NCBI GenBank assembly: GCA_003242085.1
Contig: QBML01000005.1
Span: forward strand, 62,001 to 126,000
From: Pseudanabaena frigida
Lineage (GTDB): Bacteria; Cyanobacteriota; Cyanobacteriia; Pseudanabaenales; Pseudanabaenaceae
Direction of reading: 5' to 3'
DNA length: 64,000 nucleotides
The notes below the pieces were generated by a model. It ran no database searches. It had not been told where the DNA came from and was given only the letters and a program-made list of their open reading frames with translations. Below are positions 43,411 through 58,570 of this stretch, one piece after another. The position numbers and the translations under genes are program-made. The stretch's first letter is position 1. Every line of letters begins with the position of its first letter.

Positions 43411-43439
43411 AAAAAGGGGCGCTAAGCGCCCCTTTTTTT
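43409..43439. terminator. 14-bp hairpin between rplY and the Crp/Fnr gene
   Basis: Arms 43409-43422 and 43426-43439, loop TAA, flanked by A-run and T-run; serves both convergent genes and touches both stop codons. Confidence 0.88.
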
Positions 43440-44067
43440 ATACAAGAACTATATGCCGATCGCGGTCTACTTTTAGCCACCCTTCATCTTGTAATAGCTT
43501 CATTGCTCTGGTGACAGTGACGCGGGTACTGCTAATGGCGCTAGCAAGATGTTGATGGGTGAGACGGACTGTTAAACGTGTTCCACCTTCGACGGGAATA
43601 CCAACCTCTTGCTTGAGCAAAAGCAAGATTTGGCGAAGGCGCTCTTCAACTCGCTTGTTGCTTACCAATGCTAGGAGAGATTCAGTTTGCTGTAGGCGGC
43701 GATTGAGATGTTGCAAAATCCCTTGATAAAGCATTGGAGATTGCTCCAGCTCGATCAATGTAAAGCGCATTAGATCGACATCTGATAGGGCGATCGCTTG
43801 ATATGGTTCCAGATTAGTCAGTGGTAAGCCAAAGGGCATTGCTTGGACTGCAAAACCAACCAAAACCTCATCGCCTGAAGGATGCAGGGTATTTAGTTGG
43901 ACAACACCACGGCAAACAACCCACACTTCATGGGGATACATGGGGATAATTTGCCCACTTTTGTAAGTATGCATGGTACGACCGCGATAAATTTCTTCGA
44001 GCGATCGCCGCCAATCAATTACAGAAGTTGTGGAATTAAGATTAAAGTTAGGAAACGTGTATGTCAT
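43438..44067 (-). CDS. Crp/Fnr-family transcriptional regulator
   Basis: 209 residues. Residues 20-130 form a cNMP-type beta-barrel (VWVVCRGVVQLNTLHPSGDEVLVG), a linker helix, then an HTH at about 165-195: THQHLASAISSTRVTVTRAM. The recognition segment GSTRVTVTR of NtcA is nearly kept (SSTRVTVTR), so the DNA site may resemble GTA-N8-TAC. The phosphate-binding cassette of true cAMP receptors (RxxSA) is absent, so it probably does not bind cAMP in the classical way. A membrane or nutrient-signal role cannot be deduced. No operon partners. Confidence 0.88.
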   Translation of the reverse strand: MTYTFPNFNLNSTTSVIDWRRSLEEIYRGRTMHTYKSGQIIPMYPHEVWVVCRGVVQLNTLHPSGDEVLVGFAVQAMPFGLPLTNLEPYQAIALSDVDLMRFTLIELEQSPMLYQGILQHLNRRLQQTESLLALVSNKRVEERLRQILLLLKQEVGIPVEGGTRLTVRLTHQHLASAISSTRVTVTRAMKLLQDEGWLKVDRDRHIVLV

Positions 44068-44884: not shown

Positions 44885-46684
44885 TTATTGTTGATTAGTT
44901 TCGTTAATTTGCCATTGTCCTAAATCTGCATTCCATATTAAAGAAATACGAAGGGTCTCAGGCAAAATCGCGTTATCTTTTTCTCTTTGATAAGCCAAAT
45001 CGACATCAAGAATCGCTACATTTTCTTTGATTTCAACAGGACGTACTTCTATAATGGAAACATTTTTAATCGTGAACCAAAATTTCGTAAATTCCCTATA
45101 TTCTTTAGGGCGACTATTTTGAAATATTGGTGTGAGATTTTTCCAAGCCTCTTGAAATTGGCGATTATTAATCAAAGCATAATAATCTCGGATTGCTTTT
45201 ACTGGAGAGGGTTTTACTGGAGATGGAGTTGCAGTTTTTGACGGTGTTACAGTTGGTGAAGGCGAAGGTATGGGAGGTAAATCACTTCCAGCAAATCTTT
45301 GCACGGGATCTTTTTTGTTAGGACTAGCAAGGGCGCAATAGGCATCTTCAGCAAATTTGAGATGTTCCTTGAGCTTAGATTTGCAACCGTCTAAATTTGT
45401 GAACTTCTCTGCATATACTTGCTGCCATTTACTCTCTCCCAAATTGGGATAGTCAGATATTAAAAACATTCCTGCGTCTTTGTATCCTTGCTCTTTTAAT
45501 TTCTCAACTTTACGAGTGGCAGATTCAATATCCTCAAAAGCCGAATCTGCTAGGAAATAAAATGGAAATTTGGCAGCAGGTTTATTGAAAGGAGAAAACT
45601 TATTCCAGATAGCAACGATACCGCCATTTTGAGCAATTACGACACCTAAGGCGATCGCTGCTCCAATTGCTCCACCAACAATCATTATTGCCAATAGCTG
45701 ACCGAGTACCTTCTTCTTAGGATCTTGCTGAGATTGATATACATAAACCGATTGATTTTGAACCGCAGGTGGAGTATACCCCTTTGGCGTTACTGCTACA
45801 GTCTGCATGTTCGACATCGCTGGCGGAATGGGGACTGATTTAGCTGGCTTAGATTGGTTTAATGGATTTGGTTGCAAGGCTTCGAGCATTTCTCTCGCAG
45901 AACTGTAGCGATCGCGTGGATCGAATTGCATAACCTTCGTAAATATTGCTTTTAAATTTGCGCTAATTCCCATAACATGGGGCTGCCAGATAACCTCTCC
46001 TGTTTGCGGATCGGTACCTAGTTGTTGAGGATATTGTCCTGTGAGAGCAAAGATAGCAGTAAGGGCAAGACTATAGAGATCGCTAGCGAAGAATGGTCTA
46101 CCCGCAGCCTGTTCCGATGCCATAAATCCTGGAGTACCAATCACAATCGAATGTGCCTGTTGAGAAGAACTGCGGATCGTACTGACGTTGAGAGTTTCTT
46201 TGACTGCACCAAAATCAATTAATACAGGCTCACCAGCACGTAAAATAATATTATCGGGTTTAATGTCCCGATGTATAATGCCGCGATCGTGCACGTAGAT
46301 TAAGGTCTGAAGAATGCTGATCAATAATTTTCTGACAGCATCTTCGTTCCATTTACCATTACGTTCTATTTCTTCTGTTAGGGTTAGTCCATCAACCCAT
46401 TCTTGGACTAAATAGAACAATCCATTTTCCGCAAAGTTAGCATAGAGTTTGGGAATATAGCGACTTTCTTCTCCCAAAGTTTCGAGAACTGCTGCCTCAC
46501 GGTGAAATCGTTGTTGCAGTAATTCATACATTTGTGGATTGTCGGCAACAGGTTTGAGTTGCTTGATCACACAACGACGCTTAGAGGGCATTTTGGTGTC
46601 TTCAGCCAAATAGGTTTCACCAAAGCCACCACTGCCTAGGACGCTAGTGACGCGATAGCGGTTATCTAAAAGGTTTGACATCAT
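44885..46684 (-). CDS. membrane-anchored Hanks-type serine/threonine kinase
   Basis: 599 residues. A full kinase domain (about 8-270): glycine loop GSGGFGE (17-23), ATP Lys41, HRD 138-140, DFG 157-159, GTPGFMASEQ. This one should be active, unlike the pseudokinase at 15.9 kb. A single transmembrane helix (329-351) follows, then an outside region with a SPOR-like segment (FPFYFLADSAFEDIESATRKVEKLKEQGY), a Pro/Ser-rich linker, and a C-terminal NTF2-like domain (AIRDYYALINNRQFQEAWKN) common in cyanobacterial kinases. The external domain may bind a wall or small-molecule signal. Confidence 0.93.
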   Translation of the reverse strand: MMSNLLDNRYRVTSVLGSGGFGETYLAEDTKMPSKRRCVIKQLKPVADNPQMYELLQQRFHREAAVLETLGEESRYIPKLYANFAENGLFYLVQEWVDGLTLTEEIERNGKWNEDAVRKLLISILQTLIYVHDRGIIHRDIKPDNIILRAGEPVLIDFGAVKETLNVSTIRSSSQQAHSIVIGTPGFMASEQAAGRPFFASDLYSLALTAIFALTGQYPQQLGTDPQTGEVIWQPHVMGISANLKAIFTKVMQFDPRDRYSSAREMLEALQPNPLNQSKPAKSVPIPPAMSNMQTVAVTPKGYTPPAVQNQSVYVYQSQQDPKKKVLGQLLAIMIVGGAIGAAIALGVVIAQNGGIVAIWNKFSPFNKPAAKFPFYFLADSAFEDIESATRKVEKLKEQGYKDAGMFLISDYPNLGESKWQQVYAEKFTNLDGCKSKLKEHLKFAEDAYCALASPNKKDPVQRFAGSDLPPIPSPSPTVTPSKTATPSPVKPSPVKAIRDYYALINNRQFQEAWKNLTPIFQNSRPKEYREFTKFWFTIKNVSIIEVRPVEIKENVAILDVDLAYQREKDNAILPETLRISLIWNADLGQWQINETNQQ

Positions 46685-46770: not shown

Positions 46771-47847
46771 TTATACTAATTCTGGGGTTTGACTGCTAAT
46801 TAACTCTAGATGTTGCCTAATTTCTTGTTTGAGTTTCTGAAAATCTGACTTTTGGAAGGTTAAAAGATCGTCAATTGAATAAACTTCAACAATCTCTTCT
46901 CTACCTTTTGCATGAAAATCTCCAAGTCTGACAGATCGCCAGCGATCGCTTAATCCCAATCTCACAGAATCAGAAAATACCAAGAATCGATTTAACTGTC
47001 TTGTGAGAGCTTCAATCCTTGAAGCCACATTCACTGCATCACCAATGACTGTATATTCTTTCTTGGTTTGAGAACCAATATTTCCTTCTAAAACTGTTCC
47101 TTTAGATAGACCAATACCAACATAGAGAACTCGCAATGGACTATTAGCTGGGGCTTGATTGCGTAACATTTCCAGATCAGAGAGAATATCTAAACTGGCT
47201 TGCAGAGCATTGTCAGCCTGATCGCCATCAAAATATGCCATCACACAGTCGCCGATAAACTTAGTAACTTCTCCTCCTCTCGCCGCGATCGCCTTAGTAC
47301 AAATCGTAAAAAATTGATTGAGAAAATCAACAACTTCCGTCACCTGAACTTTTTCAGTTATGCTGGTAAAGCTAATAATATCAGCAAAAAAAATAATTTT
47401 TTCGGTATAGCGAGGAACGAGTGTGAGCGGATTAATACCTCTACCGATCGCTTCGAGAACTCCTGATTGAGTATAGGTTGCCAAAATTGCTTGCGATTCT
47501 CCCAAAGTTTGTAACAGAATCTTGATTGGTTGCAGCAAAATATCATTGTTTTCATCTAAGACAATTACTTCCATCGACCAATCTGGAAAGCGGCGCGCAG
47601 AAATATTTAGTTCGGACTTTAAGCATAAAATTCTATTGTGGCGATCATCCTTCAGAATCTTTTCGTAAAGGCTATCAATACTTTCTTCTTCCCCTTCTAA
47701 AATCTGAAAAAAAATGCCACTACAACTAAGTAAAACCCCTGTGATACCTTGCCTACAGTTATTAGTTTGAGAGATTTTCCCAATACTTTCAATGTCTTTT
47801 TTTGTAAGCGATCGCGAGAAATTACTAATGTAGGTTAACCTTTTCAT
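46771..47847 (-). CDS. BLUF-domain photoactivated adenylyl cyclase
   Basis: 358 residues in two parts: BLUF flavin domain (1-95) and class III cyclase (about 145-330), joined by a long helix (QPIKILLQTL). All BLUF residues needed for the light switch are in place: Tyr6, Asn30, Gln48, Trp90, Met92. Cyclase metal Asps are 156 (FFADII) and 200 (IGDCVMAYFD), purine-selecting Lys196 and Thr266, transition-state Asn273 and Arg277. The order and spacing match bPAC (Beggiatoa) and OaPAC (Oscillatoria), which make cAMP under blue light. Neighbour on the same strand is a Ser/Thr kinase. Weak ribosome site before the ATG. Light control is inferred from the residues, not shown. Confidence 0.93.
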   Translation of the reverse strand: MKRLTYISNFSRSLTKKDIESIGKISQTNNCRQGITGVLLSCSGIFFQILEGEEESIDSLYEKILKDDRHNRILCLKSELNISARRFPDWSMEVIVLDENNDILLQPIKILLQTLGESQAILATYTQSGVLEAIGRGINPLTLVPRYTEKIIFFADIISFTSITEKVQVTEVVDFLNQFFTICTKAIAARGGEVTKFIGDCVMAYFDGDQADNALQASLDILSDLEMLRNQAPANSPLRVLYVGIGLSKGTVLEGNIGSQTKKEYTVIGDAVNVASRIEALTRQLNRFLVFSDSVRLGLSDRWRSVRLGDFHAKGREEIVEVYSIDDLLTFQKSDFQKLKQEIRQHLELISSQTPELV

Positions 47848-47988
47848 AGAATTGCGATGTTTTAATTAACGAAAGAATTTAATCTCTAAAAATTATAAAT
47901 ATCTGTCTCGACAACAAAATTTACCCCCATCCTTACTATTTGTAGCTCAAATAACAACAGATGCGTAATCAGCAATACGGCGTAACTT

Positions 47989-48033
47989 CCCAGAAGAGAA
48001 TGGCGGCGCTTTGCGCCGCCATTCTCTTCTGGG
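47989..48033. repeat. 21-bp perfect hairpin in the divergent PAC-rpiA gap
   Basis: Arms 47989-48009 and 48013-48033, TTT loop, GGCGGCGC core. It lies 142 bp upstream of the cyclase start and 182 bp upstream of rpiA, which are transcribed away from each other, so it ends neither gene. The rest of the 367-bp gap shows no gene. Confidence 0.75.
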
Positions 48034-48214
48034 ACTTACTTGGCTACTGCTATTTTTTTGAGCTTCATTTGATCTGTCTGTATCATACAACACATTTCGC
48101 CTAGAGCATAACAAGCGTGACGTAAGAAACAATGAAAAGTAACGCTTCTACCTTTGATTTATCAGTGTCTCGCATGGTGCGATAGGATTAAAAGTGCTGC
48201 TTTAAAGTTTATAA

Positions 48215-48928
48215 ATGAGTATTTCTGCTGAAGATATTAAAAAGTTAAAAAAAGAAGTCGGAATTGCGGCGGCGCAACGAGTGCAATCTGGCATGGTGGT
48301 TGGTTTAGGCACTGGCTCAACTACTGCTTTTGCGATCGAGGAGTTAGGCAGACGCATTTCTACGGGCGAGCTAACTGACATCGTGGGCATCCCAACTTCA
48401 TTTCAAGCATCGGTATTGGGCAAAAAATATGGTATTCCCATCCGCAGTTTAGATGATGTCGACCGCGTTGATGTAGCGATCGATGGCGCTGATGAGGTTG
48501 ACCCAAACAAAACCTTAATCAAGGGCGGTGGCGCTGCCCATACTCGCGAAAAAGTTGTCGATTCATTGGCAGCTTTATTTATCGTCGTGGTTGATGAGTC
48601 GAAATTAGTAGATAAGCTAGGCTCTACCTTTGCCGTACCTATTGAAGTTTTGCCGATGGCAGTTTCTCCTGTAACCAGAGCCGTCGAAAAACTAGGCGGT
48701 AAACCCGAACTACGGATGGGAGTCAAAAAAGATGGTCCCGTAATTACCGATCAGGGCAACATGGTTTTGGATGTTACTTTTGATGCGATCGCTGATGCTG
48801 CCGAATTAGAAAAAACCTTGAATAATATTCCTGGTGTAGTCGAAAACGGCATATTTTTCGGTGTTACCGATGTAATTCTGGTCGGTGAATTTAAGGATGG
48901 AAAGCCTCAAATTCGCGAAATTTCTTAA
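48215..48928 (+). CDS. rpiA: ribose-5-phosphate isomerase A
   Basis: 237 residues. It interconverts ribose-5-P and ribulose-5-P, needed in the Calvin cycle and oxidative pentose pathway. Motifs: [16 protein letters not shown] (about residues 30-45), DGADEVDPN (about 91-99, catalytic Asp), [11 protein letters not shown] (about 104-114). Cyanobacterial length. The 3' end runs into a 14-bp hairpin that also ends the convergent cbiT. Confidence 0.97.
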
Positions 48929-58363: not shown

Positions 58364-58570
58364 AGCAATGTAAGTTTTGCTTACCCAAAAGATGAGTGGC
58401 GGTGCGAAGCGCCACCACTCATCTTTTGGGTTTTGATTTGTCCTAGCTATCTCTTGCGTTTCTAATAGCAAACCAAAGTTAGCTGAGGGTATAAAAACCA
58501 GATAAAGAAAGGCGGCGCTTCGCGCCGCCTTTCTTTATCTGGTTTGTCCTAGCTCTCTTGGATTGCTATA
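58364..58570. repeat. two tandem long-hairpin elements upstream of dnaK
   Basis: Element 1: arms 58383-58405 and 58409-58431 (23 bp, one mismatch, one G-T) around GAA. Element 2: arms 58495-58518 and 58522-58545 (24 bp, perfect) around TTC. After each comes TTTGTCCTAGCT(AT)CTCTTG (58437 and 58543), so the right flank is repeated. TATAGCAATG and GATTGCTATA bound the pair. Together they fill the 541-bp gap 58110-58650. Confidence 0.75.

Follow-up and report, generated by a model that had tools for sequence, protein, structure and literature searches.

Sequence analysis predicts an OaPAC/bPAC-type, blue-light-activated adenylyl cyclase in Pseudanabaena frigida

Does a single gene of Pseudanabaena frigida encode an enzyme that makes cAMP in response to blue light, and how closely does it follow the photoactivated adenylyl cyclases (PACs) already known? 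The gene lies in a stretch of 64,000 nucleotides (contig QBML01000005.1, positions 62,001 to 126,000; hereafter the window), whose genome of 5.39 Mb in 67 contigs groups with Pseudanabaena genomes. A previous sequence-only reading had proposed a PAC of the type represented by bPAC and OaPAC. The features of the locus are as follows, in window coordinates.

46771–47847, minus strand: PAC gene, 358 amino acids, encoding a BLUF domain followed by a connector helix, a class III adenylyl cyclase domain and a short C-terminal tail (open reading frame, PDB matches, Pfam, dN/dS)
47569–47847, minus strand: BLUF photosensor domain, residues 1–93, with Tyr6, Asn30, Gln48, Asp67, Trp90 and Met92 (Pfam, residue check)
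47419–47568, minus strand: connector, consisting of the alpha3 helix and handle region, residues 94–143 (boundaries by homology to OaPAC and bPAC)
46888–47409, minus strand: class III cyclase catalytic domain, residues 147–320 (Pfam Guanylate_cyc)
46774–46803, minus strand: C-terminal tail, residues 349–358 (tail alignment)
44885–46684, minus strand: Ser/Thr protein kinase gene, 599 amino acids (Pfam Pkinase, E = 1e-33)
48215–48928, strand opposite to the PAC gene: rpiA, named from its sequence

The minus strand carries an intact reading frame of 358 codons that opens with ATG and closes with TAA, whereas a plus-strand translation of the same interval contains many stops. Pfam placed a BLUF domain at residues 1–93 (PF04940, E = 3.3e-28, 98 bits versus a cut-off of 25) and a Guanylate_cyc domain at residues 147–320 (PF00211, E = 1e-19, 71 bits versus 21.9). 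Both lie far above the curated cut-offs, and the proposed combination of BLUF and class III cyclase domains in one 358-residue chain was thereby confirmed. No specific model matched when the NCBIfam models were searched with the protein. Comparison with congeners gave dN/dS ratios of 0.06–0.09, which are rough because dS exceeded 1, but which indicate that the protein is under purifying selection. Together with the match to OaPAC (E ~1e-131), these ratios rule out a chance reading frame or a pseudogene. A plasmid-borne origin was also considered and rejected, as the gene had no PLSDB match at 1e-40.

The PDB match to OaPAC of Oscillatoria acuminata (structures 4yus, 5x4u, 8qfg and 9f1w) was gapless, connecting residues 1–356 of the one protein with residues 1–356 of the other (E = 1.7e-131); bPAC was matched with E = 4.7e-114. 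The sequence-only reading had suggested an alignment with bPAC and OaPAC as a check. Over the whole length, this alignment yielded identities of 52.3% to bPAC, for which the reference sequence agrees with PDB 5m27 from end to end, and 56.5% to OaPAC, the two known enzymes being 57.5% identical to each other. All 11 residues named beforehand were found by script at their OaPAC numbers (Tyr6, Asn30, Gln48, Trp90, Met92, Asp156, Lys196, Asp200, Thr266, Asn273 and Arg277), and each aligns with the identical residue in OaPAC and bPAC. The key residues are mostly invariant or nearly so across 26 relatives, in an alignment that leaves out one row bearing a stop codon. The cyclase domain retains the metal-binding Asp156 and Asp200, the base-recognizing Lys196 and Thr266, and the transition-state residues Asn273 and Arg277. 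Asp67 is invariant in the alignment of the relatives; in OaPAC, its exchange for Asn raises the activity about 1.5-fold and slows recovery (PMC10448171). The flavin contacts 29 and 63, which were defined in OaPAC along with the flavin-switch roles (PMC11533990), are Asn and Lys in the window protein. The sequence-only reading had described the 11 residues as known to be needed. They are indeed alike in OaPAC and bPAC, but this wording is slightly too strong, since Lys197 and Arg278 of bPAC can each be replaced with light activity left: the K197A and R278A variants keep photoactivation at lower activity, and activity is abolished in the K197A/D201A double mutant (PMC8522238).

An enzyme of the OaPAC/bPAC type is the best reading of the gene, given its homology over the full length, the order of its domains, its key residues, its phylogenetic position and the purifying selection on it; the same evidence supports the class assigned to it beforehand. 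By analogy with these two enzymes, the protein is very probably a soluble, homodimeric, flavin-based and blue-light-activated adenylyl cyclase, and it almost certainly makes cAMP. In OaPAC and bPAC, the flavin accepts an electron and a proton from Tyr6, Gln48 rotates and the region of Trp90 and Met92 is displaced, and the alpha3 helices carry the signal to the cyclase dimer (PMC11533990, PMC10837130, PMC6937261). On this model, blue light would excite the flavin in the BLUF domain, and the hydrogen-bond network of the flavin would be reorganized by Tyr6 and Gln48. This would be relayed via the Met92/Trp90 strand and then the alpha3 connector helices of the dimer, leading to a shift of the two cyclase domains. 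The active sites formed where these domains meet, with Asp156 and Asp200 as ligands of the metal ions, would then convert ATP to cAMP.

An AlphaFold model of the monomer, built from 26 sequences (mean pLDDT 76, pTM 0.59), had chains of OaPAC and bPAC as its best structural matches. Model residues 145–347 superposed on the bPAC cyclase domain (5mbg) with a Z score of 25.7 and an rmsd of 2.0 Å over 189 residues. Superposition of the whole chain on the crystal structures failed (rmsd ~19 Å) because the linker is poorly predicted, with a connector pLDDT of ~51–74. As the placement of the domains differs from that in the crystals, the model speaks for the two domains as such but not for how they are arranged, and is silent on coupling.

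The connector is 54% identical to that of OaPAC and 46% identical to that of bPAC. Nearly all Pseudanabaena proteins differ at seventeen positions where OaPAC, bPAC and the Oscillatoria-type proteins agree, and five of these positions (105, 116, 123, 124 and 136) sit in the connector. The window protein has Ala in place of both Glu123 and the Arg120 of OaPAC; throughout the genus, Glu123 is replaced by Ala and Lys124 by Ser or Asn, and Arg120 mostly by Ala or Thr. Such lineage-specific changes could alter dark activity or coupling. The replacement of connector residues common to OaPAC and bPAC also lends some weight to a different explanation, according to which light control is weak or lost and the gene encodes a dark-active or little-active cyclase kept for another reason, as does the fact that the activity of a related enzyme, LiPAC, was not measurable in oocytes (PMC8522238). 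However, every flavin-switch residue and Asp67 are conserved, and the low dN/dS and a BLUF identity of 59–62% argue that the sensor still matters. We consider a cyclase with weak or lost light control improbable and keep to the light-activated enzyme.

The second region of divergence from OaPAC is the C-terminus. OaPAC ends in an 18-residue tail, the last nine residues of which suppress activity, and the same tail attached to bPAC causes no inhibition (PMC6937261). The tail alignment revealed just ten residues beyond the tail start point in the window protein, with a sequence unlike that of OaPAC. The natural absence of the inhibitory tail might mean a higher activity than that of OaPAC; this is a guess, because tail suppression depends on the host protein.

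At the base site, Thr266 is replaced by Ala in six copies among the relatives (L059, the first copy in L084, L068, and the second copies in L081–L083), which requires at least four changes on the tree and may have altered the nucleotide specificity of these relatives. One tandem copy carries Lys in place of Arg277. Some four independent exchanges of Thr266 mean that this base-site position is loose in Pseudanabaena, and they are the argument for a product other than mainly cAMP, that is, cGMP, another cyclic nucleotide or a mixture. The window protein nevertheless keeps the adenylyl-type pair Lys196/Thr266, as OaPAC and bPAC do. We give the assumption of a different product next to no credence, and cAMP remains the expected product.

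The nearest relatives of the protein come nearly all from Pseudanabaena genomes, the closest (87%) from a genome titled Phormidium tenue. At least one PAC copy is present in 23 of 26 Pseudanabaena genomes, that of G005 being a truncated frame, and of the three genomes without PAC, two have a completeness of 95% and 99%. The gene was absent from all 12 genomes sampled from seven further Pseudanabaenaceae genera. In an even sample of the cyanobacterial phylum, PAC occurred in 5 of 386 genomes and 2 of 142 genera. Further carriers are Laspinema, Oscillatoria, Phormidium pseudopriestleyi and Planktothricoides and, more remotely, an Omnitrophota bin. In the phylogenetic tree, the Pseudanabaena PACs form a single clade (100/100) apart from the OaPAC group. 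The protein from the Candidatus Omnitrophota bin (L052) is a BLUF-cyclase with 49% identity and Ser at the position of Arg277; its presence there could be due to a binning error or to transfer.

Seven relatives (G011, G014, G016, G021, G022, G023 and G025) possess a second PAC, whole or incomplete, adjoining the first (L057 in G011, L065 in G014, L064 in G025, L066 in G022, L062 in G021, L069 in G016 and L061 in G023). The second copy is incomplete in G016 and interrupted by the contig end in G023. The complete second copies consist of 370 amino acids and bear a conserved tail, KQRKTLFMLYDR or similar. The second copies and the single PACs of G005 and G006 together make up one clade (100/99); thus, the duplication looks old, and one or the other copy seems to have been lost afterwards. 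The window genome has a single PAC with no trace of a second, and no remnant was found beside the intact gene in the window. An obligate heterodimer of tandem PACs with split catalytic residues is not supported, since the metal, Lys, Asn and Arg residues are present in each of the two copies, with the one Arg277-to-Lys exception.

The Ser/Thr kinase gene starts 86 bp past the PAC gene on the same strand, which makes it a possible partner in one transcript. This order and orientation recur in 19 of 21 assessable Pseudanabaena genomes (G021 and G023 fall outside this set owing to contig ends), and the link is kept in L037, L040, L042 and L043, where rpiA and cbiT were not found. The kinase is located elsewhere in G008 and G012. 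The linkage invites an extension of the preferred explanation, in which PAC and the downstream kinase form one module and light, cAMP and kinase output are tied together in a single transcript. Persistence of the same-strand order even where the upstream rpiA and cbiT are gone speaks for such a module. On the other hand, the pair is split in two genomes, the Pfam scan of the kinase revealed no cyclic-nucleotide-binding domain, and order conserved inside one genus is weak evidence. Moreover, G020 has the kinase but no PAC, and other genera have a diverged version of it, so that the link is suggestive only. We regard the module as doubtful. A broader proposal is likewise tentative and rather unlikely: a conserved light-signalling locus of Pseudanabaena, in which PAC is joined in some species by a tandem second PAC bearing the KQRKTLFMLYDR-like tail, the base site is altered in some, and the Ser/Thr kinase gene comes next. 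The two PACs might heterodimerise or be tuned to different light levels, and the kinase might be co-transcribed.

The gap between PAC and rpiA contains a near-perfect hairpin with a 22-bp stem (window positions 47988–48034; also listed at 58506–58529). Its core is present at roughly 40 places in the genome and, thus, represents a dispersed REP-like element that is not specific to PAC.

A search of the genome for class III cyclase domains gave 29 matches, and one for cyclic-nucleotide-binding domains gave 18. In a cell with ~29 class III cyclase domains, PAC would let blue light feed into the cAMP pool. The genome also encodes a second BLUF protein (L001, G000:C22:2197-2472), an open frame of 145 amino acids and about the size of PixD. 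The sequence-only reading had noted that the nearby Crp/Fnr-type gene (43438–44067) lacks the usual cAMP cassette and that the receptor is probably encoded elsewhere. Direct reading of the sequence verified the first point, as the phosphate-binding region is devoid of the Gly-Glu...Arg-Ser/Thr pattern. In addition, the gene product had no PF00027 match in Pfam, its best NCBIfam match was PtrA (NF053664, E = 1.5e-60, under the cut-off of that model), and its PDB matches were to NtcA. We therefore rejected this gene as the cAMP receptor on sequence grounds. The second point also gained in plausibility: L014 and L015, two Crp-type proteins encoded outside the locus, contain the Gly-Glu...Pro-Arg-Ser pattern and are better receptor candidates. 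Most of the L015 chain can be aligned with Crp, and L015 presumably resembles SYCRP1. In Synechocystis, Cya1 mediates a rise in cAMP and motility under blue light, and motility requires SYCRP1 (PMC4284465). By analogy, the output of PAC would probably proceed via a Crp-type receptor encoded elsewhere and act on motility or pili; this is the least certain step of the scheme.

The OaPAC/bPAC enzyme type is already known, well studied and used in optogenetics, and the Pseudanabaena PAC is a further member. A full-text literature search for a Pseudanabaena BLUF-cyclase returned a sole match, which concerns the orange carotenoid protein. Optogenetics can profit from natural relatives of OaPAC and bPAC as tools, and such relatives also help to understand how light control is set. 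In the Pseudanabaena group, some 28 sequences are available that vary naturally in tail, connector and base site, and the tail variants make the tail-suppression claim for OaPAC (PMC6937261) testable with native proteins. Pseudanabaena would, moreover, be a genus with a nearly universal blue-light input into cAMP, in which study in the living cell is possible.

Compared with OaPAC, the Pseudanabaena PAC falls into the same length class, has its domains in the same order, follows the same residue numbering and shares all flavin-switch, metal, base and transition-state residues. It comes from another cyanobacterial lineage, carries Asn29 and Lys63 where OaPAC has Lys29 and Arg63, is changed at connector residues 120, 123 and 124, and differs in the tail past the Glu348 equivalent, where the nine inhibitory residues of OaPAC are missing. 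With bPAC of Beggiatoa (PDB 5m27), it shares 52.3% identity over 346 residues, the key residues with a numbering offset of one, Asn and Lys at the flavin contacts 29 and 63, and the absence of a long tail. However, bPAC has three residues past the Glu348 equivalent instead of ten and His at the position of Tyr265, and the connector changes are specific to the Pseudanabaena lineage. Euglena PAC (PACalpha/PACbeta) likewise combines BLUF and class III cyclase domains (PMC6937261), but contains two of each per chain and forms a heterotetramer, whereas the short Pseudanabaena chain has one of each. The mPAC of Microcoleus is also a cyanobacterial blue-light adenylyl cyclase (PMC4284465), but it senses light with a LOV instead of a BLUF domain.
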